A stretch of DNA of 64,000 nucleotides, taken from Tubiluchus corallicola (taxonomy: Eukaryota > Priapulida > Priapulimorpha > Priapulimorphida > Tubiluchidae). The stretch covers positions 158,501 through 222,500 of the forward strand of contig JAQGDQ010000194.1 of NCBI GenBank assembly GCA_030141605.1, read 5' to 3'. The notes below the pieces were generated by a model, which was not told the origin of the DNA, did not search any database, and saw only the letters and a program-made list of their open reading frames with translations. Positions 3,628 through 53,830 of the stretch are shown one piece after another (the stretch's first letter is position 1; every line of letters begins with the position of its first letter). The translations under genes were made by a program, and so were the position numbers.

Positions 3628-3652
3628 TCTATACTCTTATATTAATATTCTT

Positions 3653-3691
<39 letters not shown>

Positions 3692-5591
3692 TTATATATA
3701 TATAAGATTCGAGGCTACAGCTTCGACGAGGTCACCATTTGCGGCGATCTATACATCAAACGAAAGGTCTCGATCTAGTGTCGTGCCATTGATGGTTTAT
3801 TTTTCGAATCGGGCACACCGGGAGGAACGGGGGGCGAAAAACCTCCAAAAATGGCCATTTTTCGGCCGTTTTTTGCAAAAGTTATACGGCTTAGATGTAG
3901 AGAACGGGAATGGGCAGAGGGGGGTACTGGGTATGGATAGATAGCCAGTTCAGCGGTGGGTGTCATAGGCCTATTTAGAATTCCCGAGAGGGCTACGGCG
4001 CCCCGCAACGGGCGTTTTCCCGGACCCAACTCGCGATTTTTTCGAAATTTTGGCCAAACAGCCTGCGGAAAAAACGTTCTAGCGTCGCCCGGTGGGACTC
4101 TCGGAAGGAGATATATGGCTCTTTACAAAGAGGAAGGACAGGGCTATACGATGATGTGGGCTATATTTTAGGGCAGGTCCACCGAGAGAAGTACCGACCA
4201 GTTAATTAGAGGTTCCATTTTCGACAATTTTCGCTTAGAAAACTGTTGACGCAAAGGCATTGTTGTGACGTCATCCATTGTACTCTACTCTGCTTCTAAC
4301 TTTAATTCAGCAAAAAGCTACAGGCTTTGCGTTAGTTAAACAAACAGTAGGCATGATGTTACGGGCTTTGTGTAATAAATGAGGACTAGGTAGGATGTTC
4401 GCGTGTTATTGATTACACGTGTATTTATACGCAAAATATTTTGCGGGGCCTTTGCTATTTATTATATTATAGCACATAGTTTCAACTTTGTGAAAAATGT
4501 TTGGAATGCTTTTGTTGTAATGCTGTGCTGTTGGTGCTTGTGCTATAGGTGTCGTCATTGTTGCCACCATCATCATCATCATCAACATCATGATCACCAC
4601 GTGAGGTGGTGGATTTGATGTGGTGGTGGTGGTGTGCTTTGTGTGTTGTGCTATGGATGGTGTGGTGGGGTGATAGGGTGTGTGGGGTGTGGTGTGGGTA
4701 GTGTGGTATGGAGTGGGTGGCGTGGTGTGTGGGTGGGTGGGTGTTGTGGTGCAGTGCGGTGTGATGTGGTGGAGTATTATGGTGTGGGTGGTGTGGTGTG
4801 GTGTGTGGGTGGTGTGGTGTGTGGGTGGTGCAGTGCAGTGGTAAGGTGTGGTGCAGTGTGGTGTGATGTGGTGGAGTCGTATGGAGTGGGTGATGTGGTG
4901 TGGTGTGTGGGTGGTGCGGTGTGCTGCGGTGGTATGGTGTGGTGCGGTGTGGTGTGATGTGGTGGAGTGGTATGGTGTGGGTGGGGTGGTGTGTAGGTGG
5001 GTGGGTGGTGTGGTGCAGTGTGGTGTTATGGTGTGGTGCTGTGCGGTGTGATGTGGTGGAGTCGTATGGTGTGGGTGGTGTGGTGTGGTGTGTGGGTGGT
5101 GCGGTGTGCTGCAGTGGTATGGTGTGGTGTGGTGTGATGTGGTGGAGTGGTATGGTGTGGTGTGGTGTGATGTGGTGGAGTGGTATGGTGTGGTGCAGTG
5201 TGGTGTTATGGTGTGGTGCTGTGCGGTGTGATGTGGTGGAGTCGTATGGTGTGGGTGGTGTGGTGTGGTGTGTGGGTGGTGCGGTGTGCTGCAGTGGTAT
5301 GGTGTGGTGTGGTGTGATGTGGTGGAGTGGTATGGTGTGGGTGGTATGGTGTGTAGGTGGGTGGGTGGTGTGGTGCAGTGTGGTGTTATGGTGTGGTGCT
5401 GTGCGGTGTGATGTGGTGGAGTATTATGGTGTGGTGTGGTGCAGTGCAGTGTGGTGGTATTGTGTGGTGCAGTGTGGTGCGATGAGGTGGAGTGGTATGG
5501 TGTGGTGCAGTGTGGTGTGATGAGGTGGAGTGGTGTGGTGTGGGTTGTGTGTTGATTTGTGCACAAAATTCTTTTTGTGGGGTTTGGCTAG
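3628..5591 (+). mobile_element. Non-autonomous Helitron, chimeric read-through type (copy A)
   Basis: The 5' end is TCTATACTCTTATATTAAT, preceded by A at 3627. The 3' end is CTAG (5588-5591), followed by T. A hairpin (stem CACAAAA at 5562-5568, TTTTGTG at 5573-5579) lies 8 nt before CTAG. TC/CTAG termini, a subterminal hairpin and A|T insertion without target duplication define Helitrons. Inside are a (TA)n tract, blocks shared with the other copies (for example near 3710, 3800 and 4010), a CRE-like TGACGTCA at 4266, and a second hairpin (CGCAAAATATTTTGCG, 4430-4445) followed by CTAT at 4455-4458 where other copies have CTAG. The rest is a (CAT)n tract and a GTG-rich minisatellite. No Rep/helicase coding sequence is present, so movement must have depended on an autonomous relative elsewhere. 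Confidence 0.85.
4613..5548 (+). repeat. GTG-rich minisatellite in Helitron copy A
   Basis: About 930 bp of GT-rich sequence made of variants of GGTGTGGT, GTGATGTGGTGGAGT and GTATGGTGTGG, in a loose higher-order unit of 60-180 bp. One strand is almost free of C outside GTGC and GCGG steps. The long open frames here (Thr/His/Pro on one strand, Val/Trp/Cys/Gly on the other) are products of the repeat, not genes. Confidence 0.9.
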
Positions 5592-7384: not shown

Positions 7385-9975
7385 CATCCATAAACATTGT
7401 AGTATGCCATAACATTGTAATTTTTCTATCACAATCCCATGATGAAGGTTATCAAACGCTTTCTTCGGTCTAAGTAGAGGACAGCTGTACATTTACTGTC
7501 ATCTATATTAGTCAACCGTTCATCTGTGAGTGATATCAGTGCAGTTTTTTTTCTAAAACCAGATTAGTTTTCTGTTGAAAGATAGTTGCAATCAATATAA
7601 CTGGTAAGCTCATCTGCAACTAATCTTTCAACTACCTTACTTATAATAGGAAGGATAGAAATTGGGCGGTAGCTTTTAAGATCTTCGCGATCATCAGTTT
7701 TGTGTGTAGGGGTAACCCTAGTCTGTTTCCTGGCGTCTGGGAACACACCTCTACCAAGCGAACGATTTAATAGTTTGCACTGGCTCAATTAAACGTGATG
7801 CCACCTAATCCTAAGGCGTTTCCATTAGGCATTGAATGAAATATATATATATATAGGATTTCGAAATTTCAGCATATGAAGAGTACCCGTATTGCTGTTT
7901 GCCAGGAGGCAATTTTTAACACATTTAACAATAAGAACATAATGCAGTGTCAAGCAGATGTTTAACATTTAGAACGGTATATTATTTGCTGTTTTACTTT
8001 TGTGACTAGCAAAGGCCCCGCAAAAGATTTTGCGTAAAAAACCACGTGTAATCAATAATACGCGAACATCCTACCTAGTCCTCATTTATAACACAAAGCC
8101 CGTAACATCATGCCTACTGTTTGTTTAACTAACGCAAAGCCTGCAGCTTTTTGCTGAATTAAAGTATAAGCAGAGTATAATGGATTACGTCACAACAATG
8201 GCATTGCGTCAGCAATTTTCTAAGCGAAAATTGCCGAAAATAGAACTCCTAATTAACTGGTCAGTACTTCTCTCGGTGGACCTGCCCTAACATATAGCCC
8301 ACATCATCGTGTAGCCCTGTCCTTCCTCTTTGTAAAGAGCCATATATCTCCTTCCGAGAGTCCCACCGGGCGACGCTAGAACGTTTTTTCCGCAGGCTGT
8401 TTGGCCAAAATTTCGAAAAAATCGCGAGTTGGGTCCGGGAAAACGCCCGTTGCGGGGCGGCGTAGCCCTCTCGGGAATTCTAAATAGGCCTATGACACCC
8501 ACCGCTGAACTGGCTATCTATCCATACCCAGTACCCCCCTCTGCCCATTTTTGGAGGTTTTTCGCCCCCCGTTCCCCCGGTGGGCCCGATTCGAAAAATA
8601 AACCCCCAATGAGACGACTCTAGATCGAGACCTTTCGTTTGATGTATAGATCGACGCAAATGATGCCCTCGTCGAAGCTGTAGCCTCGAATCTTATATAT
8701 ATATATATATATATACCAAGAATATTAATATAAGAGTATAGATTAAAGAAACAATTCTTAAATTAGTATAATTCGAAACATTTATATTTGTACTTACGCT
8801 CTATGTGGTATGGCAGTATTACATGTAATTACTTCGTTGCTGTTATTTCAGCCTGATCATTGCTGCAATATCATAAATAAACCACTTTGATTGATTGAGC
8901 AAAATATCCATAGTTATTTAATATATGATACATTTTGTTCAGTAGTTGTTGGCAGAGGAAAGCCTAGATCAGTTGTTTTACTATCCGGAATAATTATGTA
9001 ATTTCAAAGGCAACCTGCTGTTTTCATAAGTGTTTAACTCAAATGCATTGTTACTGATTTGATTAGTTGCAGTTGTAAAGTGCTGATTAAAAGCGTGTGC
9101 TATATCTACCGTATCTGTTAAACATTTGCCACTCACTTTTAATTGAGCAGGAGTTACATGTTTAGAAGTTGGCAGCAGTTTCTTTAGAGTTTTCCATAGT
9201 CTTTTCGAGTTTCCCAGGGACTCTGCAATTGAATTTTGAAAGAAATCCCGTACTTTAGCGAAAACTTTCTTTTTTGCTTTGTTATGAAATGAGACTTATC
9301 TGGTATCGCTTGTATATTTAATTTTTTGACTATAATAATCACGCATCAAGTACTTCCTGATTGATTAATTCTGCTATATCCTTTTTAACTCTTTGCTTTT
9401 CAGAGGAGCGTACTTATTTAATGCTGTTGTTAACTGCGAGTGTATAAAACTCCACGCATTATTTATGTCTATAATTTTGTCCAAGCAGCTCCAGTCTCTT
9501 AATCTGAGATCATGCAGGAAAGAGTCTCTATCAATATTATTCAATTACGATACAGGATTACATCTTATCTGTGATCAATTGCATTTTCCTCCTGTTTAAT
9601 CGCATTGTTGTGTTTTCGTACTAAATAGATCATCTCATGGTCGCGAAAGCCAACGGTGATAGAACCACAGTCTCTCACGTGCTGTTCGTTACTAACGTAG
9701 ATGTAGGTTATTATAGTTTCTGTTGTTTCAGTTATTCTAGTTGTAACGTTGATGATCAGCTTGAGATGGTATGCAGCTCGTAAGAAATTTAATTTTCTAA
9801 CGCAGTCCCGTTTGGCGTAATCATAGTTGAAGTCTCCTAGTAAAATTATTTCTAGGTTTTTATCTACATCGTCAGCTAAATGTCCATCAAGGTTGAAAAG
9901 GGAATCAGTGCAGTCTGGCGGTCAATAAAATGCACCAATCAGAAGGGGCGACATCTTTTCGTGGACTCTTATCTC
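7385..9975 (-). pseudogene. Decayed LINE (CR1/L2-like), split by a Helitron
   Basis: Read right to left. At 9600-9960 an endonuclease segment contains IILLGDFNYDYAKRDC, with the GDFN box, followed by VSNEQHVRDCGSITV. At 8900-9300 is the linker between domains (KRLWKTLKKLLPTSKHVTPA). At 7564-7788 is the start of the reverse transcriptase: LKSYRPISILPIISKVVERL. Downstream, near 7470, AVLYLD is followed by a frameshift where the AFD box should be. Stops and shifts throughout show it is dead. The Helitron at 8006-8742 lies inside it in the same orientation. Confidence 0.8.
8006..8742 (-). mobile_element. Non-autonomous Helitron, short type (copy C)
   Basis: On the minus strand it starts TCTATACTCTTATATTAATA at 8742 (preceded by A) and ends CTAG at 8009-8006 (followed by T). 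The terminal hairpin is CGCAAAATCTTTTGCG. It is 737 bp, has the same 5' blocks as copy A, and stops at the first terminus, so it lacks the GTG-rich tail. The CRE-like site is mutated (minus strand TGACGTAA). An open frame of 71 codons shared with other copies begins with GTG and is probably not a gene. Confidence 0.88.
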
Positions 9976-18105: not shown

Positions 18106-18789
18106 TACAGAGGGCATTATAATATGTACGTAAACAGGACGTTACGTCGCATGAGTATTATATCGCATTAGCTAAACGCTAGAAGAAATATCGCTAATCT
18201 AGTTTTTGCTTACACTAAATGAATTGCTTACGTCTGTAGACATATTTTTATCCCAATTAAAATGCTTGACTGCGAATTTCGAATTTCTATAAAATTTATC
18301 GGACACTACACTAGACTGTAGTTTTCTGTTGCTGAAATTTTCTATAAGTTTACCCCTTTCGGTTTGTCCATTATTGGGCTATTCCATAAAAAATGTGCAT
18401 TTTTTTATTTTATAAAAATGTGTTTGTTATTTTGCATCATAGGATTCATCTACGTTTTGACCGAAGCTATACAGAACTGAATTGCAATTGACTCCTTCAT
18501 TATATAAATGTAGCGACAAGTGCGGCTAGGACAATTATCAGACAGGATAGGAATATAGATTTACAGCTTTAATTTATATCTATTTTATCCACTATTTTGA
18601 CAAAACTGAAAAGTAGCAATCTGGGTAGAGTAACTCGACAAAAACGTGTTGATTTCTTGACTTTAAGAAAAGACCGCACCTTCAAGGATCACTTTTATAG
18701 TGTATGTCGCAAGAGGCACAGACAAAACTGAGCACCAGAAGAATTTCTTTTATACATCAATATTTCAAGAGATATTTCATATTTGCAAA
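18106..18789. other. Spacer, no gene recognised
   Basis: AT-rich. Contains GGGCTATTCCAT at about 18375, a phrase seen at the ends of some short DNA transposons, but no partner end is visible. Confidence 0.35.
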
Positions 18790-19969
18790 TCGTATATATT
18801 AATTTTGGTGGTATGTTCTATATATATAAACCTCGTTTATTTTTCGAATCGGGCCCACCGGGAGGAACGGGGGCCGAAAAACCTCCCAAAACGCCCTTTT
18901 TGACCGTTTTTCTCAAAAAATTGCAAGACTTATACCTCTTATTTCTAGAGAATGGGAACCTGCCGAGGGCGGTGCCGGTAATGGTTGAATAGCCCGTTCA
19001 ACGGTGGGTGTAATAGTATTATTTAGATTTTGCGGGAGGGCAAATAAAACCCGGTACGGCAATTTTCCCGGACCCAACCCGCAAATTTTGCTGAAAACTG
19101 CTCAAACAGCCTCTAGAAAAACTCAATTTGTGCAAATGTTTGGGCATGTTGGGAAAAAATAAGCACACCCGCAGAAAGAACACGAAATGGTCCACAAAAT
19201 GTTGAAGGTTTTACTGGGAGAGAGGTCCATTATACGAAACCGGAAGGGTGTATTTCGAAGTTCTTTTTCAACCCTCCTATGCTGCACGCTATTTGGAACA
19301 TCCATTGTCTTTGAGTTTGAGAAATTTCGTGGCTGTTCCAGCCATTGTCTCCACCCGTCGTTCTACAGTGGTATAGACTTTACATGTAAGTAAGTTGTGT
19401 AGTCTATTACCATGTGAGAACCGGCAAACAAAACCATATGGAATGTTTGCGCATTATTGATCATTGGTAAACAGACTAAGAGCATTTATTATAGCACACA
19501 GTTTCGACTTTGTGCAAAATGTTTTGCATGGTTTTGCTGTGATGCTGTACTGTTGGTGTAGGTGCTGTAGGTGTCGTCATCACTGTCGTCATCATCATCA
19601 TAGTCATCAACATCATGATCATCATATGAAGTGGTGTGTGTGCTGTGAATGGTGTGCTGTGGGTGTTGTGTTGTGGATGGTATGGTGGGGTTGGGTGGTA
19701 GGGTGGGTGTGGTGTGGTGTTGGTAGAGTGGTGTGGTGTGGTGGGTGTGGTGTGGTGTACAGTGGTGTGGCATGGGTGGTGAGCTATGATGTGGATGGTG
19801 TGATGTTGTGGTATGGTGTGGGTCATGTGTTGTGACTGGAGTGGTGGGTTGGTGTTGTATGGTGTGTTGTAGGTGGTGTTTTGTGAGTGGGAAGGTGGGT
19901 GGTTGTGTGCTGTGGTGTGGGTTGTTGTTGTGAGTTTATGCGCAAAATTCTTTTGCGGGGTTTGGCTAG
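18790..19969 (+). mobile_element. Non-autonomous Helitron, GTG-tailed subfamily (copy B)
   Basis: The 5' end is TCGTATATATTAATTTTGGT (preceded by A). The 3' end is CTAG at 19966-19969, followed by T, with a hairpin (GCGCAAAA..TTTTGCG) just before it. A 5' segment is missing, so the AT-rich lead jumps directly to TTTATTTTTCGAATCGGGCC. The 3' third has TTATTATAGCACACAGTTTC, a CAT-rich tract and a GTG-rich tract. That tail is what the chimeric copies at 3628, 33233 and 49620 carry after their first terminus. No transposase coding is seen. Confidence 0.82.
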
Positions 19970-20404
19970 TATTAAATTAATCTTCTTGAGAAATTCGCCA
20001 GGAATAGTTAGGAATATGACGACATAAAACATAATTTTTGTCTCATTACTAGTACGTATTTTTATTACTTTGTTGTTCGACGGATTCGACTCAGATCGCT
20101 ACTTTCAATACACAGATTTACTGAAACGAATTTTGCATCGACTGACCGAGTCGGATTCTCGATCTGTCATTTGATTTCAAGATGGCGGCTATAATATAAT
20201 TTTAGAAAAAACTTAAAGAACAAGAACAGAGGTGCCAGAAGTATGTTTCAAAAAATCGTCTTAAAAAATTATATTGCTTTACAGCACTTTTATGCGTATA
20301 TCGTACCCGCGTTAAAAGGAATGTTATTTGTTTTCATTTTAGATCTCCCGCAATACTGTTCCGACAGCGTCATTACATGACGTCACTTATGCAAATGTAA
20401 ATCA

Positions 20405-33232: not shown

Positions 33233-35582
33233 TCTATACTCTTATATTAATATTCTTGGTATCTTAATATATATATTTATTTATATATAAGATTCGAGGC
33301 TACAGCCCGGACGAGGGCACCATTTGCGGCGATCTATATATCAAACGAAAGGTCTCGATCTAGTGTCGTCTCATTGGGGGTTTATTTTTCGAATGGGGCC
33401 CACCGCGAGGAACGGGGGGCGAAAAACCTCCAAAAATGGCCATTTTCAGCCGTTTTTTGCAAAAGTTATACGCCTGAGATGTAGAGAACGGGAATGGGCC
33501 GAGGGTGGTGCTGGGTATGGATAGATAGCCCGTTCAGCGGTGGGTGTCATAGGCCTATTTAGAGTTCCCGAGAGGGCCACGGCGCCCCGCAACGGGCGTT
33601 TTCCCGGACCCAACTCGCGATTTTTTCGAAATTTTGACCAAACGGCCTGTGGAAAAAACGTTCTAGCGGCGCTTGGTGGGACACTCGGAAGGAGATATGG
33701 AGCTCTTTACAAAGAGGAAGGACAGGGCTACACGATGATGTGGGCTATATGTTAGGACAGGTCCACCGAGAGGAGTATCGACGAGTTAATTAGATGTTCT
33801 ATTTTTCGCAATTTTCGCTTAGAAAACTGCTGACGCAAAGGCATTGTTGTGACGTCATCCATTGTATTCTGTCTATAATCTTATAGCTTTAATTCAGGAA
33901 AAAGCTGCTATGCTGCTGTAATTCAGTAAAAGCTGCTACGGGCTTTGTGTTAAAAATGAGGACTAGGTAGAATGTTCGCGTGTTATTGATTATACGTGGT
34001 TTTTTACGCAAAATCTTTTGCGGGGCCTTTGCTATTTATTATATTATAGCACATAGTTTCAACTTTGTGAAAAATGTTTGGAATGGTTTTGTTGTAATGC
34101 TGTGCTGTTGGTGCGTGTCGTCATCGTTGTCACCATCATCATCATCATCATCATCAACATCATGATCACCACGTGAGGTGGTGGATTTGATGTGGTGTGG
34201 TGGTGGTGGTGTGCTTTGTGTGTTGTGCTATGGATGGTGTGGTGGGGTGATAGGGTGTGTGGGGTGTGGTGTGGATAGTGTGGTATGGAGTGGGTGGCGT
34301 GGTGTGTGGGTGGGTGTTGTGGTGCAGTGTGGTGTGATGTGGTGGAGTATTATGGTGTGGGTGGTGTGGTGTGTGGGTGGTGCGATGTGGTGTGGTGCAG
34401 TGGTATGGTGTGGTGCAGTGTGGTGTGATGTGGTGGAGTCGTATGGTGTGGGTGGTGTGGTGGTGTGGGTGGTGCGGTGTGCTGCAGTGGTATGGTGTGG
34501 TGCGGTGTGGTGTGATGTGGTGGAGTGGTATGGTGTGGGTGGTGTGGTGTAGTGTGGTGCAGTGTGGTGTTATGGTGTGGTGCAGTGTGGATGTATATTA
34601 TGGTGGGGTGTGGTGGTGTGGTGTGGGTGTGGCAGTGTGGTGCATGGTGTGGTGTGTGTGGTGGAGTGGGTATGGGTGTGTGGTGGTGTGGTGTGTAGGT
34701 GGTGAGTGGTATGGTGTGGCAGTGTGGTGTGGTGGAGTGGTGGTGTGGGTGGTGTGGTATGGAGTGTGGTGGCGTGGTGTGTGGGTGGGTGTTGTGGTGC
34801 AGTGTGGAGTGTGGTGCAGTGGTGTGGTGGTGGAATTATGGTGTGGGTGGTGTGTGGGTGTGTGGGTGGTGTGGTGCAGTGGTGGTGTGGTGTATGTGTG
34901 ATGTGGTGGAGTCGTATGGTGTGGGTGGTGGTGTGTGTGTGGTGGTGTGTGCTGCAGCGGTATGGTGTGTAGGTGGGTGGGTGGTGTGGTGCAGTGTGGT
35001 GTTATGGTGTGGTGCTGTGTGGTGTTATGGTGTGGTGCTGTGTGGTGTGATGTGGTGGAGTATTATGGTGTGGGTGGTGTGGTGTGGTGTGTGGGTGGTG
35101 CAGTGGTATGGTGTGGTGCAGTGTGGTGTGATGTGGTGGAGGTGATGGTGTGGTGTGTGTGTGGTGTGTAGTGGTATGGTGTGGGTGGTGGTTGTGTGGT
35201 GGTGTGGGGTGGGTTATGGTGTGGTGCTGTGTGGTGGATGTGGTGGAGTGGTATGGTGTGGGTGGTGTGGTGTGTAGGTGGGTGGGTGGTGCAGTGTGGT
35301 GTTATGGTGTGGTGCTGTGCGGTGTGATGTGGTGGAGTATTATGGTGTGGGTGGTGCAATGGTATGGTGTGGTGCAGTGTGGTGTGATGTGGTGGAGTGG
35401 TATGGTGTGGGTGGTGTGGTGTGTAGGTGGTATGGTGTGGTGCCGTGCGGTGTGGTGGTATTGTGTGGTGCGATGAGGTGGAGTGGTATGGTGTGGTGCA
35501 GTGCGGTGTGATGTGGTGGAGTGGTGTGGTGTGGGTTGTGTGTTGATTTGTGCACAAAATTCTTTTTGTGGGGTTTGGCTAG
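33233..35582 (+). mobile_element. Non-autonomous Helitron, chimeric read-through type (copy D)
   Basis: Same structure as the 3628 copy. The 5' end is TCTATACTCTTATATTAATA (A at 33232). The first hairpin near 34010 (CGCAAAATCTTTTGCG) is followed by CTAT instead of CTAG. A TTATTATATTATAGCACATA joint leads to a CAT tract and about 1.35 kb of GTG-rich minisatellite. The second hairpin (CACAAAA/TTTTGTG) and CTAG are at 35579-35582. A CRE-like TGACGTCA lies at 33850. It is 2350 bp, the longest copy apart from the Tigger-bearing one. The extra length is in the minisatellite. Confidence 0.87.
34170..35545 (+). repeat. GTG-rich minisatellite in Helitron copy D
   Basis: The same repeat vocabulary as at 4613-5548, but expanded and rearranged. 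It ends in the same GTTGTGTGTTGATTTGTGCA lead into the terminal hairpin. Long Thr/His/Pro or Val/Trp/Gly open frames are artefacts of composition. Confidence 0.9.
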
Positions 35583-36772: not shown

Positions 36773-38285
36773 CAGGGGTTCTCAATCTTTTATTGACAGC
36801 GACCCCTTTCAAGAACCCTGCATCATATCACGACCCCACGAAAAACATAATCACATTTTATACTGTTAAACATCATTATCATTTGCTTTATTCATTTATT
36901 AAGTTTAACTTACTATTCAACCAATTATTAAATGAGTGATTGTTTCATAAATTAATTAATATGATGGTTGCGCCTGTTTCTAGTTTTCTAATGCGTGTCT
37001 CAATGCCACTTAGCGCAACAATCATGTCCGATTCTATTTCAAGCCGATCTCTGTATTTCATTTTCATAACAACCATTGTAGAAAACATCTGTTCAAATAA
37101 GTAAGATGAAGGGTACGACATTAGGAAACTTACTGCCTTCATGGATAGACCTGGATAGGATTCACGCATTTCGCACCAGCATTTGAAAAAGGACAGTATC
37201 CTGCTTCACTCACGAGCTCCTCTTGAGCACACTAATACAATTTAGCCAACCAGTCGCTGGACTCCAGCATTGCCACCCATTCATACATGGGTGTACCCAA
37301 AAAATTGTTAAACGTCTGTTCAAATAAGTAAGATAAAGGTTACGACATTAGGAACCTTACTGCCTTCATGAATAGACCTCAGAATCCTGCTTCGATCACG
37401 AGCTCCTCTTGAGCACACTAATACAATTTAGCCAACCAGTCGCTAGACTCCAGCATTTCCACCCATTCACACATGGGTATACCCAAAAAATTGTTAAACG
37501 TCTGTTCAAATAAGTAAGATAAAAGTTACGACATTAGGAACCTTACTGCCTTCATGAATAGACCTCAGAATCCTGCTTCGATCATGAGCTCCTCTTGAGC
37601 ACACTAATACAATTTAGCCAACCAGTCGCTAGACTCCAGCATTTCCACCCATTCATATATGGGTATACCCAAAAAATTGTTAAACGTCTGTTCAAATAAG
37701 TAAGATAAAGGGTACGACATTAGGAACCTTACTGCTTTCATGAATAGACCTCAGAATCCTGCTTCACTCACGAGCTCCTCTTGAGCACACTAATACAATT
37801 TAGCCAACCAGTCACTGGATTCCAGCATTGCCACCCATTCATACATGGGTGTACCCAAAAAATTGTTATAATTCTTCATGTAACTCGTAAACACATAGAA
37901 TTAGGTTTCCTCACGATAACCATCAAAACCAGCACAGAAGAGTAACTTAATGTTATCATCTCATGGCAGAACAATCTAAATTCTTAATAATCTGCTGCTT
38001 AGAGCACTGGATTTGATGTGATTCATGATTTCGAATACTTGTGACAATACCTCCATGAGACTTACAGGCAATGTGCAAGCAGCAAGCACCTCCCTATGGA
38101 TCATGTAATGTATCATGAGCCCAGGAGAACCAGCTGCTGTACAAGGTTCTACTAGAAATAAACAAATCAAGGTACTTTCATTTTTTAACGGGAATTTCTC
38201 CTTAAAAATTAGACTTGACGCCAACATGTAACAGAGTGTTGTGTCTGGATAGTTGAAATTTTCTGCATAAGCCGATTTCATGCAA
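36773..38285 (-). mobile_element. hAT transposon remnant (ZBED/SCAND3-like)
   Basis: The terminus CAGGGGTTCTCAATCTTTT at 36773 is typical of hAT/Charlie-like elements. Read right to left, 38130-37978 has HYMIHREVLAACTLPVSLME then VFEIMNHIKSSALSSRL, as in ZBED5/SCAND3-type transposases. 37169-36945 has YPGLSMKAVSFLMSYPSSYL then KMKYRDRLEIESD and ALSGIETRI, the C-terminal hAT dimerisation region. Between them the coding part is disrupted by tandem copies (37081-37867). The far terminus beyond 38285 was not found. It lies inside the intron between WAP and Tg exons of the inhibitor gene, on the same strand. Confidence 0.75.
37081..37867. repeat. Four tandem units of about 186 bp inside the hAT element
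   Basis: Three exact-length 186-bp units start at 37310, 37496 and 37682 (each AAACGTCTGTTCAAATAAGT). A first unit at 37081-37309 is 229 bp because it keeps 43 bp (TGGATAGGATTCACGCATTT and on) that the others lack. The first unit is the original transposase sequence. The others are copies of a deleted version. Confidence 0.95.
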
Positions 38286-48109: not shown

Positions 48110-48720
48110 TAGCGCATTTGAAAATACATATTATGTGCCATCCACTTTACTATATACTATACACGATATTACTATCTAAAAACACTAAATACACAGAAAA
48201 GTTCATAGGCGTTGTAGCCATTTTTCATCACAGTTCAAAATTCATATTATATATATATATATATATGTATTATATGTATATAATACATATTAGCTAAAAA
48301 TAGCTTTAACTCATCTACTTTAAAACCTTCAAAAAGTGCACAAAATAAATTAGTTAAGATAAGTACTTTTGCTGGCTTTCCATCATGTCACTCCATCATT
48401 CATTAAAGTACAACTGTTAAAAATACACGACAACTTAACTGATAAAATTCATGTATCGATATAAAAACATTTTTTCCAAACATATTTAAACATTATTTTA
48501 AGCCACTTACTGAAGTCCACCAATACTTCACTAGATCAGCAAATAAGGGCTATATGCATACCCGCAGGGTATAACTTAATACATGGAAATAAGTAAAAAG
48601 GTTGCCAAAATGACTTGTTTCAAATTATGCTAAAAACTAGATGACTTACTCTTTCATATACTAATTACATAATTAATCCGTAATTGTCTATATTAGCAAA
48701 GAACTAACTATTATTATTAT

Positions 48721-48725
48721 TGTTA

Positions 48726-48773
<48 letters not shown>

Positions 48774-48791
48774 GTATTAGTATTATTATTA
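48721..48791. repeat. (ATT)n microsatellite, left side of Helitron array
   Basis: About 70 bp of ATT/TTA repeats with GTATTA variants. The last base, A at 48791, is the 5' target base. The same repeat resumes at 53791. Confidence 0.95.
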
Positions 48792-49619
48792 TCTCTTATA
48801 TTAATATTCTTGGTATATATATATATAAGATTCGAGGCTACAGCCCGGACGAGGGCACCATTTGCGGCGATCTATATATCAAACGAAAGGTCTCGATCTA
48901 GTGTCTTCTCATTGATGGTTTATTTTTCGAATCGGGCCCACCGGGAGGAACGGGGGGCGAAAAACCTCCAAAAATGGCCCTTTTTCGACCGTTTTTTGCA
49001 AAAAATTGCAAAAGTTATACGGCTGAGATGTAGAGAACTGGAACGGGCCGAGGGGGGTGCTGGGTATGGATAGCCCGTTCAGCGGTGGGTGTAGTAGGCA
49101 TATTTAGAATTCCCGAGAGGGCCAGGGCGCCCCGCAACGGGCGTTTTCCCGGACCCAACTCGCGATTTTTTCGAAATTTTGACCAAACAGCATGCGGGAA
49201 AAAACGTTTTAGCGTCGCCCGGTGGGACTCTGTGAAGGAGATATGGGGCTCTTTACAAAGTGGAAGGACAGGGCTACACGATGATGTGGGCTATATGTTA
49301 GGGCAGGTCCACCGAGAGGAGTACTAGCGAGTTAATTAGATGTTCTATTTTCGGCGATTTTCGCTTAGAAAACTGTCCTAACGCATTCCATTGTGCTGAC
49401 GTCATCCATTGTACTCTGCTGGCTTAATTCAGCAAAAAGCTGCTTTGCGTTAGTTAAACATACAGTAGGCACGAGTAAACGCTGCTACAGCCTACTGCGT
49501 TAGGTAAGTAGGCAGGATGTTACGGGCTTTGTGTTATAAATCAGGACTTGGTAGGACGTTTGCGTATTATTGATTACACGTGTATTTATACGCAAAATCT
49601 TTTGCGGGGCCTTTGCTAG
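48792..49619 (+). mobile_element. Helitron array, unit 1 (short type)
   Basis: The 5' end is TCTCTTATATTAATATTCTT, preceded by A. The 3' hairpin is CGCAAAATCTTTTGCG, then GGGCCTTTG and CTAG at 49616-49619. 828 bp. CRE-like TGACGTCA at 49397. No coding capacity. The next unit starts at the very next base. Confidence 0.92.
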
Positions 49620-50928
49620 TCTCTTATATTAATATTCTTGGTAGATATATATATATATATAAGATTCGAGGCTACAGCTTCGACGAGGGCACCATTTGCG
49701 GCGATCTATACATCAAACGAAAGGTCTCAATCTAGTGTCGTCTCATTGATGGTTTATTTTTCGAATGGGGCCCACCGGGAGGAACGGGAGGCGAAAAACC
49801 TCCAAAAATGGCCATTTTTCGGCTTTTTTTGCAAAAGTTATACGGCTGAGATGTAGAGAATGGGAATGGGCCGAGGGTGGTGCTGGGTATGGATAGATAG
49901 CCCGTTCAGCGGTGGGTGTAGTAGGCATATTTAGAATTCGCGAGAGGGCCACAGTGTCCCGTAACGGGCGTTTTCCAGGACCCAACTCGGGATTTTTTCG
50001 AAATTTTAGCCAAACAGCCTGCGGGAAAAGCGTTCTAGCGTCGCCTGCTGGGACTCTGGGAAGCAGATATACGGCTCATCAGAAAGAGGAAGGACACGGC
50101 TACAGGATGGTGTGGGTTATATTTTAGGGCAGGTCCACCGAGAGGAGTATTGGCGAGTTAATTAGGAGTTCTATTTTCGGCAATTTTCACTTAGAAAACT
50201 GCTGACGCAAAGGCATTGTTGTGACGTCATCCAATGTTTGGAATGGTTTTGTTGTAATGCTGTGCTGTTGGTGCTTGTGCTATAGGTGTCGTCATCATTG
50301 CCACCATCATCATCATCATCATCAACATCATGATCACCACGTGAGGTGGTGGATTTGATGTGGTGTGGTGGTGGTGTGCTTTGTGTGTTCTGCTATGGGT
50401 GGTGCAGTGCGGTGTGATATGGTGGAGTATTATGGTGTGGGTGGTATGGTGTGTGGGTGGTGCGGTGTGGTGCAGTGGTATGGTGTGGTGCAGTGTGGTG
50501 TGATGTGGTGGAGTCGTATGGTGTGGGTGGTGTGGTGTGTGGGTGGTGCGGTGTGCTGCAGTGGTATGGTGTGGTGCGGTGTGGTGTGGTGTGATGTGGT
50601 GGAGTGGTATGCTGTGGGTGGTGTGGTGTGTAGGTGGGTGGGTGGTGTGGTGCAGTGTGGTGTGCGGTGTGATGTGGTGGAGTATTATGGTGTGGGTGGT
50701 GTGGTGCAGTGGTATGGTGTGGCGCAGTGTGGTGTGATGTGGTGGAGTGGTATGGTGTGGATGGTGTGGTGTGTAGGTGGTATGGTGTGGTGCGGTGCGG
50801 TGTGGTGGTATTGTGTGGTGCAGTGTGGTGCGATGAGGTGGAGTGGTATGGTGTGGTGCAGTGTGGTGTGATGAGGTGGAGTTGCGTGTTGATTTGTGCA
50901 CAAAATTCTTTTTGTGGGGTTTGGCTAG
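49620..50928 (+). mobile_element. Helitron array, unit 2 (chimeric, GTG-tailed)
   Basis: Starts TCTCTTATATTAATATTCTT immediately after unit 1's CTAG, so its left neighbour is G rather than the usual A. Near 50232 the sequence jumps from GTGACGTCATCCA to ATGTTTGGAATGG. This deletes the first terminus and the joint that the 3628 and 33233 copies retain. The CAT tract, GTG-rich tract, CACAAAA/TTTTGTG hairpin and CTAG (50925-50928) follow. Confidence 0.92.
50340..50885 (+). repeat. GTG-rich minisatellite in array unit 2
   Basis: Same repeat family as at 4613 and 34170, but shorter, about 545 bp. Confidence 0.9.
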
Positions 50929-50937
50929 TCTCTTATA

Positions 50938-52967
50938 CAGTGGCCGCCGCTTATTGTGGACACCTCGGGCCAGTAGTGTATGTCCATATTAAGCGGCTGT
51001 CCATATTAAGCGAAGTGACCCTTCCCCTTCATTAAAAAAGGCAAAAAACTGTCTGTATCAACTCGTCTCCTGTTTTATTGAAAAAAAGAAGTCAGACGAG
51101 TTTGTTTGGCAGGAAACTTTTCTCTCAACCTTGAACGGAAGGAAGTTATCACAGTTTCGAAGCTCTCAATGTTGAGACTGTTCTGCCTGTGGCCTCGCTC
51201 CAGCACCTCAAGGGCGGCCCTCATTTCTTTCGACGAGACAACAGGCTCCGCTTCTTCCTCATTGTCGTCTTCTTCGGAATCTTCAACTTCGGTTTTTGCT
51301 GCAGCAACGCGTTGCACCAGGTCATGCGTCATCTCTTCACTCATCCTCTCTTCAGCAATTTCTGCGTCGTCATCGACTGCCACCCAAGCAATGAAGTCCT
51401 CGGCGTCACTTTCAGGGACCTCATCCGGGACGGGAATTGCAGTTACAACTTCGTCGACCTCCTCGTCGACATTTCCAAAGCCTCCCTTCCTCCAGCAGTT
51501 CACAATGGTCTCCGGCTTGACCGTCTTCCACGCGGCAGAGAGCATTTCCATGGCTTGCAACACATTCAACTTCTTCACGACTTCGTGTGCAGAAGAATTT
51601 TCATCTTCGAGATCCTCCATGATCTGTAAGATTTTCCGGCGAATCGCTGTCCGGAAGAGAGCCTTCAGCGCCCTGATGATCCCTTGGTCACATGGTTGCA
51701 GAACCGAAGTTGTGTTTGGTGGCAGGAAGCGAATCGTCACATTCTTCAGTCCCTGAACCTGTGCATGGGCGCTGCAATTGTCTGCCAAAAGCAAGATGTT
51801 TCGCTGCTGCCGCCCCATCTGGAGGTCGAGTTCACGCAGAAAACTCTCCCAGATCGCTGCCGTCATCCATGCATTGTGGCTGAACTTGTAAATGCAGTCA
51901 TTCGGCAGTTCACGGCCTTTGAAGCACCGTGGCGGAGGGGAAGCCGCTCTCCTTCGAGGCTGCACGTGACAAGTGCAGTGATCCGGTCCTTGGCAGTTTT
52001 GAAGCCCTTTGCCGTCTTCTTGTTGCGCTGTTTGACGTACGTCGAACCAGGAAGAGCGCGGAAGTAGATCCCCGTTTCGTCGGTGTTGAAAATGTCCTTC
52101 CTGTCAAACTGACCCAACAAAGTCGGCCATTCCTTCTTCAAGAAATCGTCGGCACTTGATGTCTCGGCCTCGGCTGCTTCTCCTCGCAATGTGATGAAAG
52201 TCAAACCGTTTCTCTTTTTCCACCTCGAAAACCACCCATCGGTTGGAATGAACGCAACACCCGCTCCTTCAGCGATTGCCTTGGCCTTTTCCATCAACAA
52301 TGGACCACTAAGAGGGATGTTTCGCTGGTGGGCCCAGTTGTAGAACTGCAGCAGAGCATCCTCGATGTCTTCATTCTTTCCACACCGATGTCGCTTGATT
52401 TGCACACCGTCCTCAGCAGCTTCATGACGAAGTTCGGCTTCGTTCTTGATCATCAAGTGCAGAGCGCTCTTTTTCGTTTCAAGGGTTTCTGGGGTTCTCC
52501 TTCTTCAAATCGTAGAACTTGCTCAACAGTGCCACTTTCTCAGCCACAGAACGGTCCTTTCGCTTACCCATCAGAGAGAGAAGAAGAAGAATAATAAGAA
52601 GAAGAGGACGTGCGGAGACAAGGTTATGCAAAAGTTAAGTGGAGCTAGGCTACGGAGAGGTGATCAAAACGGCATTTCGCAAACCTAGCCTTGTTCACTG
52701 CAATGCAAAACACACCAATCACAAGCACAAAACAATGCGAGTCTAATCGAGTTCACTGCCAAGACAAAGCAGGACAGCCTTCAATCACGCGCGCAGGCCG
52801 TGGTTGGCACGGCTGGTTCACGTGCCAAGAATGTTCGCTGTCCATATTAAGCGGCGGTTGTCCATATTAACCGGCGGATTTTATTAGGGGAAAATTCGTC
52901 CCTCGTGAGTTGTCCACAATAACCGGCTGTCCACAATAACCGTGTCCATAATAAGCGGCGGCCACTG
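50938..52967 (-). mobile_element. pogo/Tigger-type DNA transposon
   Basis: 2030 bp with terminal inverted repeats CAGTGGCCGCCGCTTATT followed by (G/A)TGGACAC, 25 of 26 bases matching. It is flanked by duplicated TA (50936-50937 and 52968-52969). Several subterminal TGTCCATATTAAGCGG-like motifs occur at both ends (about 50983-51018 and 52850-52960), likely transposase-binding sites. It carries one transposase gene on the minus strand, now frameshifted. It is clearly more GC- and CpG-rich than the host DNA around it. Confidence 0.93.
51075..52571 (-). pseudogene. Tigger transposase, two frameshifts
   Basis: The start is ATG at 52571 (MGKRKDRSVAEKVALLSKFY), the N-terminal helix-turn-helix. A one-base frameshift lies near 52490 in a C run. 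The second frame (to about 51950) has a CENP-B-type DNA-binding part (DGWFSRWKKRNGL) and the first catalytic Asp in NTDETGIY (about 52080). A second break near 51950 has lost a few codons plus a frame. The third frame resumes at PRCFKGRELPND, with the second Asp in LLLADNCSAH (about 51782) and the third in PCDQGIIRAL (about 51689). That is a DD30D triad. It ends in an acidic tail and SFFQ-stop at 51075. All three catalytic residues survive and damage is light, so the insertion is recent. Confidence 0.9.
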
Positions 52968-52986
52968 TATTAATATTCTTGGTATG

Positions 52987-53020
<34 letters not shown>
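52942..53020. repeat. Junction of Tigger and (TA)n lead of unit 3
   Basis: The right Tigger terminus (52942-52967), the duplicated TA, then TTAATATTCTTGG and a (TA)n tract (52986-53020) belonging to the Helitron 5' region. Confidence 0.8.
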
Positions 53021-53025
<5 letters not shown>

Positions 53026-53790
53026 GAGGCTACAGCCCGGACGAGGGCACCATTTGCAGCGATCTATATATCAAACGAAAGGTCTCGATCTAGTGTCGTG
53101 CCATTGATGGTTTATTTTTCGAATCGGTCCCACCGGGAGGAGGGGGGGCGAAAAACCTCCAAAAATGGCCATTTTTCGGCCGTTTTTTGCAAAAGTTATA
53201 CAGCTGAGATGTAGAGAATGGGAATGGGCCGAGGGTGGTGCTGGGTATGGATAGATAGCCCGTTTAGCGGTGGGTGTAGTAGGCATATTTAGAATTCGCG
53301 AGAGGGCCACGGCGTCCCGTAACGGGCGTTTTCCCGGACCCAGACCCGGAAATTTTGACCAAACAGCATATGGAAAAACCGTTCTAGCGGTGCCTGGTGA
53401 GACTCTCGGAAGGAGATATATGGCTCATCAGAAAGAGGAAGAACGGGGCTATACGATGATGTGGGCTATGTGTTAGGACAGGTCCACCGAGAGGAGTATC
53501 AACGAGTTAATTAGGTGTTCTTTTTTCGACAATTTTTGCTGACGCATTCCATTGTGCTGACGTCATCCATTGTACTCTGCTTATAACTTTAATTCAGCAA
53601 AAAGCTGCTACAGGCTTTGCGTTAGATAAACATACAGTAGGCAGGAGTAAACGCTGCTACAGGCTTTGCGTTAGATAAGTAGGCAGGATGTTATGGGCCT
53701 TGTGTTATAAATGAGGACTTGGTAGGACGTTCGCGTATTATTGATTACACGTGTATTTATACGCAACATCTTTTGCGGGGCCTTTGCTAG

Positions 53791-53793
53791 TTA

Positions 53794-53830
<37 letters not shown>
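53791..53830. repeat. (TTA)n microsatellite, right side of Helitron array
   Basis: TTATTGTTATTATTATT.. continues the repeat interrupted at 48791. Its first T is the 3' target base. Confidence 0.95.

Follow-up and report, generated by a model that had tools for sequence, protein, structure and literature searches.

Head-to-tail Helitron arrays in the priapulid Tubiluchus corallicola, probably built by serial insertion at the left edge of resident copies

The three Helitrons standing head to tail in a microsatellite of Tubiluchus corallicola were probably acquired through three independent insertions, each following the ordinary A|T rule and each taking place at the left edge of the resident copy. 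Unit 3 would have entered the (ATT)n microsatellite first, unit 2 would have followed at the host A|T of unit 3, and unit 1 would have been added last at the host A|T of unit 2. Since a host A together with the first T of a resident element forms an A|T target, canonical insertion at this point yields exactly the CTAG|TC join. The array lies in the window, i.e. the whole stretch of 64,000 nucleotides that was analysed (contig JAQGDQ010000194.1, positions 158,501 to 222,500).

Positions 48792-49619 (unit 1), 49620-50928 (unit 2) and 50929-53790 (unit 3) represent three non-autonomous Helitron copies on the forward strand, all with the canonical TC/CTRR ends (5′ TC, 3′ CTAG) and joined with zero spacing, the TC following directly 3′ of CTAG at both inner joins. 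This structure had been correctly read from the sequence by the earlier note, and its assignment of units 1 and 3 to the short type and of unit 2 to the GTG-tailed type was borne out as well. The left host flank is an (ATT)n microsatellite (48709-48791, forward strand) whose last base, at 48791, supplies the A of the A|T target, and the right host flank is a (TTA)n stretch (53791-53830, forward strand) which begins with its T; set side by side without the array, the two flanks make (ATT)n in register. Unit 1 (828 bp, TCTCTT...CTAG) has the leaderless 5′ end TCTCTTATATTAAT and carries the target-like motif ATTAAT at +9 (48800-48805, forward strand). The same motif is located at +9 of unit 2 (49628-49633, forward strand), a copy of 1,309 bp with GTG-rich tandem repeats in its tail (50359-50879, forward strand). 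Hairpins of six, seven and five pairs are predicted on the forward strand near the 3′ ends of units 1, 2 and 3 (49591-49606, 50899-50916 and 53762-53777, respectively), ending 12-13 bases before the 3′ end.

Unit 3 (TCTC...CTAG) looks long only because a DNA transposon of 2,030 bp (50938-52967, reverse strand), absent from the earlier note, splits it after 9 bp; without this insertion it measures 830 bp, the length of the short type. The nested element has inverted terminal repeats (CAGTGGCCGCCGCTTATT) and a TA duplication (50936-50937 and 52968-52969). It encodes on the reverse strand a DDE_1 transposase part (PF03184, E 4.2e-31; 51075-51965) and, overlapping it in another frame, a Tc5-type helix-turn-helix part (HTH_Tnp_Tc5, PF03221, E 1.6e-11; 51863-52456). 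We take it to be pogo/Tigger-like. The longest listed open reading frame over the array belongs to this nested transposase (296 aa; the domain scan covered the reading frames of the nested element). A profile search of the genome with Helitron_like_N gave one match (C2069:9053-9544, E 1.4e-47), and the gene located there is a possible source of the transposase.

Joins of the same kind recur throughout the 343.5-Mb assembly. The earlier note had proposed to search for other CTAG|[sequence] junctions, and the exact junction CTAG|TCTCTTATATT... was found 118 times, in part on redundant contigs. Read backwards, the same 26-base pattern (CTAG|TCTCTTATATTAATATTCTTGG) had no match, thus the joins are not due to chance. 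Six loci (L021-L026 on contigs C2107, C2074, C2072, C1974, C1831 and C1752) share an identical 3.8-kb stretch, and five of the six contigs list five junctions each at equal spacings, which suggests redundancy in the assembly. As the identity includes the flanks, we rejected the interpretation of these loci as six transposed arrays. Counting each redundant five-junction set once leaves about 93 joins (118 minus 25), a figure for which identity was shown for two of five contigs and which assumes that the sixth contig carries the same five junctions. Such redundancy could speak for an assembly artefact in the window; however, the contigs with joins are many and the neighbours on them vary, and the average divergence between adjacent units is about 8%. 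Judged from the assembled sequence, an artefact therefore appears unlikely and is given next to no weight here.

The loci parsed for units comprised twenty regions of 6-9.5 kb, three that were smaller and four of 3.8 kb, and are biased to copies resembling unit 1. With unit 1 as the genome query, scoring of 40 out of 2,706 first-look candidates gave 91 matches, many of which touch one another. In 33 pairs of neighbouring units the cores were 91.66% alike compared with 91.60% for shuffled partners (p 0.39), the between-locus mean core identity being 91.3%. In the sampled arrays, the distances between left units and those between right units showed a correlation of 0.037 (p 0.35); left distances do not predict right ones, and thus these arrays are not repeated as wholes. 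Based on neighbour identity and distance correlation, we rejected a single-template concatemer as well as arrays that move as units.

More generally, a rolling-circle concatemer or a head-to-tail circle could have been integrated at once, or the replication could have switched templates between two elements. Circles of Helraiser do carry a perfect CTAG|TC junction (PMC4778049), and rolling-circle amplification is reported to explain plant centromeric arrays (PMC12628747). Mutual nearest relatives were furthermore found in 3 of the 33 pairs (L037 3455/5339, with 30 bp between the units, L051 1023/1862 and L052 1251/2054) and one-way nearest relatives in L031 and L049, and some of these pairs may be real duplications. 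However, neighbours are overall no closer than random copies, units 1, 2 and 3 differ from each other by 12-14%, and parent circles of the leader form described below would give CTAG|TCTATAC, of which no case was found. An origin of this kind is therefore very improbable. The suggestion of one rolling-circle concatemer in the earlier note is contradicted by the sampled arrays, while its statement that the array is beyond the reach of a simple one-element circle is supported, as is its alternative of growth by repeated reinsertion at a terminus.

The insertion sites share the motif A|T-N4-7-ATTAAT. With at most one mismatch, ATTAAT is located at +6 to +9 in 24 of 27 host-side 3′ flanks compared with 6.5% of 9,567 background A|T sites, i.e. 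those of the window outside the elements; the exact motif is present in 10 of the 27 and in 0.46% of the background. These flanks derive from 31 host-type 3′ ends minus five, plus the end at 19969 of the window taken from the inner list. Two of the five were dropped because a unit follows (L030 2332 and window 50928) and three as apparent stray pattern matches (L038 minus 1379, L048 plus 3999 and L048 minus 6312). All 27 retained ends are followed by T, which is lacking in two of the three stray matches.

Since the range of +6 to +9 was picked after the local flanks had been seen, genome-wide sets of ends are a better test, though some loci are shared. ATTAAT lies in this range in 64 of 71 short-type ends (among the first 100 listed of 480 places) and in 50 of 74 GTG-type ends (among the first 100 listed of 205 places), the remaining 24 of the 74 having it elsewhere among the matches listed; ends overlapping a listed inner junction were excluded from both sets, which may still include unlisted inner units. 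Insertion at A|T without target duplication is indicated by the register of the (ATT)n flanks, by the A before all 198 exact leader-form ends and by the T on the 3′ side. Helraiser missed AT in 46 of 1,751 insertions, with TT, AC and AA as the most prominent exceptions, and its preference for AT-rich targets is most pronounced on the 3′ side (PMC4778049). An (ATT)n repeat is a near match to the motif, which fits the sites of the array in the window, L042 and L046. All three arrays end in (TTA)n (at 53791 in the window), and L041 begins in (AAT)n, which points to microsatellites as repeated targets.

Single and leftmost units start mostly with TCTATACTCTTATATT (leader form) or TCTCTTATATT (leaderless form). 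The leader consists of an extra 5-bp TATAC, which pushes ATTAAT from +9 in leaderless ends to +14; other inner variants have it mostly at +8 or +9, with C1027 as the one inner end among the matches listed in which it lies at +17. Consequently, a host A followed by a leaderless end resembles the target, whereas a host A followed by the leader does not. In the whole genome the exact leader form follows A in 198 cases and C, G or T in none, while the exact leaderless form follows A in 128 cases and CTAG in 118. None of the 198 exact leader-form copies is an inner unit, and GCTAG directly before a leader form was not found genome-wide even with one mismatch allowed. The association between form and preceding context is highly significant (Fisher p 3.5e-38 for 118 joins and 1.2e-31 for 93 joins). 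Locally, A precedes ten of ten leader-form ends; the nine leaderless ends of that comparison were selected by their A. A TCTA remnant stands before at least two of the 128 leaderless copies after A (those of L038 and L041). In L037 (5339) and L045 (8343, reverse strand) the 5′ ends are lengthened by TCTACTA repeats, another leader-like form.

Based on these observations we propose that the 5′ terminus mimics the element's own target (A|T-N4-7-ATTAAT), the leaderless form acting as a landing pad and a switch to the leader form protecting the copy and capping the array; we consider this proposal evenly balanced. The transposase would read its target through the ATTAAT motif, so that the front edge of a leaderless resident would itself serve as a ready target and stacks would grow leftwards until capped by a copy with the TATAC leader. 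Two nested cases bear on the side of entry. In L041, CTAG|TCTA|[unit]|TATTAATATTC shows that a unit has entered the 5′ end of the next one at A|T, and C307 (CTAG|TCCCTTA|TCTATAC) is a second such case, read on its left side. Together with the A|T rule and the lack of leader forms after CTAG they point to an entry left of the resident. With unit 3 inserted first, ordinary A|T entry suffices for all three units, and the conclusion of the earlier note that units 2 and 3 departed from standard A|T insertion is not a necessary one.

A comparable Helitron pair in the r1 region of maize was reportedly studied by Du et al. in 2008. Canonical insertion between the host A and the first T of the resident was one of two readings given for this pair, between which the authors could not choose (PMC2267711). 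In the simple reading the left copy came first and the right one entered later at G|T, while under the canonical order the right copy must later have been cleanly excised; PCR found three lines with the left Helitron alone, and in the part of the report concerned none is named with the right one alone (PMC2267711). By itself, the occurrence of such lines favours the opposite order, or else it needs the clean excision. Growth to the right, with newcomers entering the resident's 3′ edge between CTAG and the host T, fits the maize lines directly, and it would keep the motif in the right flank, as CTAG|T-N5-ATTAAT is still motif-like. However, newcomers of the leader form should then give CTAG|TCTATAC, in conflict with the exclusive position of this form after A, and G|T is absent from the alternative Helraiser targets that are named (PMC4778049). 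Rightward growth is therefore unlikely in T. corallicola, and so is the successive insertion at CTAG|T considered in the earlier note.

Insertion at the left edge might also have affected leader-form residents, the 5-bp leader being lost at the join during repair through CT microhomology. Such a loss would explain the lack of inner leader forms and also why the 5′ form does not track the body tree (see below). The end is trimmed further in L034 (CTAG|CTCTTATATT), and the TCTACTA-lengthened host-side ends of L037 and L045 face inner ends TCTATTATATT, which could reflect the same loss. However, such a loss would have to be nearly universal, and 128 leaderless copies are already located at A|T, including those after the TCTA remnant. 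We regard this explanation as somewhat less likely still than growth to the right. An exact join 300-3,500 bp downstream was found for 10 of 100 leader units and 6 of 67 leaderless units in the contigs covered by all listings, so arrays follow both forms about equally often.

Serial insertion at the left edge predicts that the leftmost unit is the youngest. The nearest non-self relatives are 96% (full length, 829 bp) and 98% (754 bp) identical for unit 1, 93% for unit 2 (query of the first 621 bp) and 90% for unit 3 (query of 771 bp). This order fits the prediction, although it would arise by chance in one of six cases and the queries were of unequal length (829, 621 and 771 bp). Inspection by eye of the end-branch lengths of other pairs, in the sample biased to copies resembling unit 1, revealed no trend towards younger left units. 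A neighbour on the left is present in approximately 42% (93 of 221) of the exact leaderless copies. A random motif site should attract far fewer insertions, thus newcomers must be drawn by more than the motif.

On the tree of element bodies, from which the chimeric copy L042r_1720 was left out (it was kept in the neighbour-pair comparison), the 5′ form requires seven changes for ten leader copies compared with a mean of 9.3 after shuffling, 17 of 500 shuffles being as low. This scatter suggests that the forms switch or recombine often, which is not predicted by the model of leftward growth. The leader form as the newest burst was rejected, the median end branch, in a sample biased to copies resembling unit 1, being 0.037 in ten leader copies and 0.0325 in 26 inner leaderless copies (p 0.41). 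The nine A-preceded leaderless copies had a median end branch of 0.022 (p 0.04 versus inner copies).

The window also contains single copies with the leader form, among them a short-type copy (8006-8742, reverse strand) and two composite copies starting with TCTATAC (3628-5591 and 33233-35582, forward strand). A broken LINE-like endonuclease/reverse-transcriptase region, judged by eye, is located at 8800-9900 on the reverse strand, and a tandem repeat of 186 bp (3.6 copies, 95% matches) at 37194-37868. Both composite copies correspond to the short type through GCTA, have the internal short-type end CTA|TTTATT and continue with TTTATTATATTATAGC and then the GTG tail; an older GTG element carries the matching stretch after A (A19484|TTTATTATAGC). 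The composite type most likely goes back to the insertion of a short element into an older GTG element, at A|T, combined with the loss of the G from the CTAG of the short element. Replication would then read through to the next terminator, the end of the GTG tail. At 3628-5591, 33233-35582 and 18760-19970 the inner 3′ terminus lacks the final G and the element continues to the terminator of the GTG tail; here the loss of a terminator has probably produced a new element in nature. Unit 2 of the array matches the composite type except that the internal short-type end is missing.

Helitrons stacked head to tail are known from bat, maize, fungi and plants (PMC2267711, PMC5876387, PMC4778049, PMC5148889, PMC12628747), and both such stacks and the idea of canonical insertion were already in print for maize in 2008 (PMC2267711). 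The maize r1 pair resembles the arrays of T. corallicola in the TC directly following CTAG and in its unrelated neighbours, but it is one pair of unsettled order (PMC2267711), whereas here about 100 joins, a target motif and a 5′ dimorphism favour canonical entry at the left edge. Perfect head-to-tail joins are shared with the tandem Helibat of Myotis (Pritham and Feschotte, as reported in PMC2267711) and with Helibat copies abutting another copy (PMC4778049). The Myotis copies were read as tandem repeats by their first authors on account of the missing A (reported in PMC2267711), a reading without support in our arrays. The FoHeli self-insertions and the triple tandem in Metarhizium differ in that they comprise few cases of non-canonical Helitrons (PMC5148889). 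The centromeric rolling-circle Helitrons described by Xiong et al. 2016 (reported in PMC12628747) also form tandem arrays, but of truncated units, and many of those arrays combine several 5′ ends with a single 3′ end; in the arrays here, units are mostly complete at both ends and adjacent ones are unrelated. A search of the open-licence literature, part of which named the motif, found no paper combining this motif with Helitrons and target sites and no mention of a Helitron whose own end imitates its target motif.

The choice between a concatemer and serial insertion, and the side on which stacks grow, were not settled by the maize and fungal reports as far as these treat the question (PMC2267711, PMC5148889). 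With about 100 joins and two natural 5′ forms, the genome of T. corallicola provides a built-in test of the origin and the side of stacking. It suggests a simple sequence rule, the spacing of a motif, for when a transposon attacks itself.
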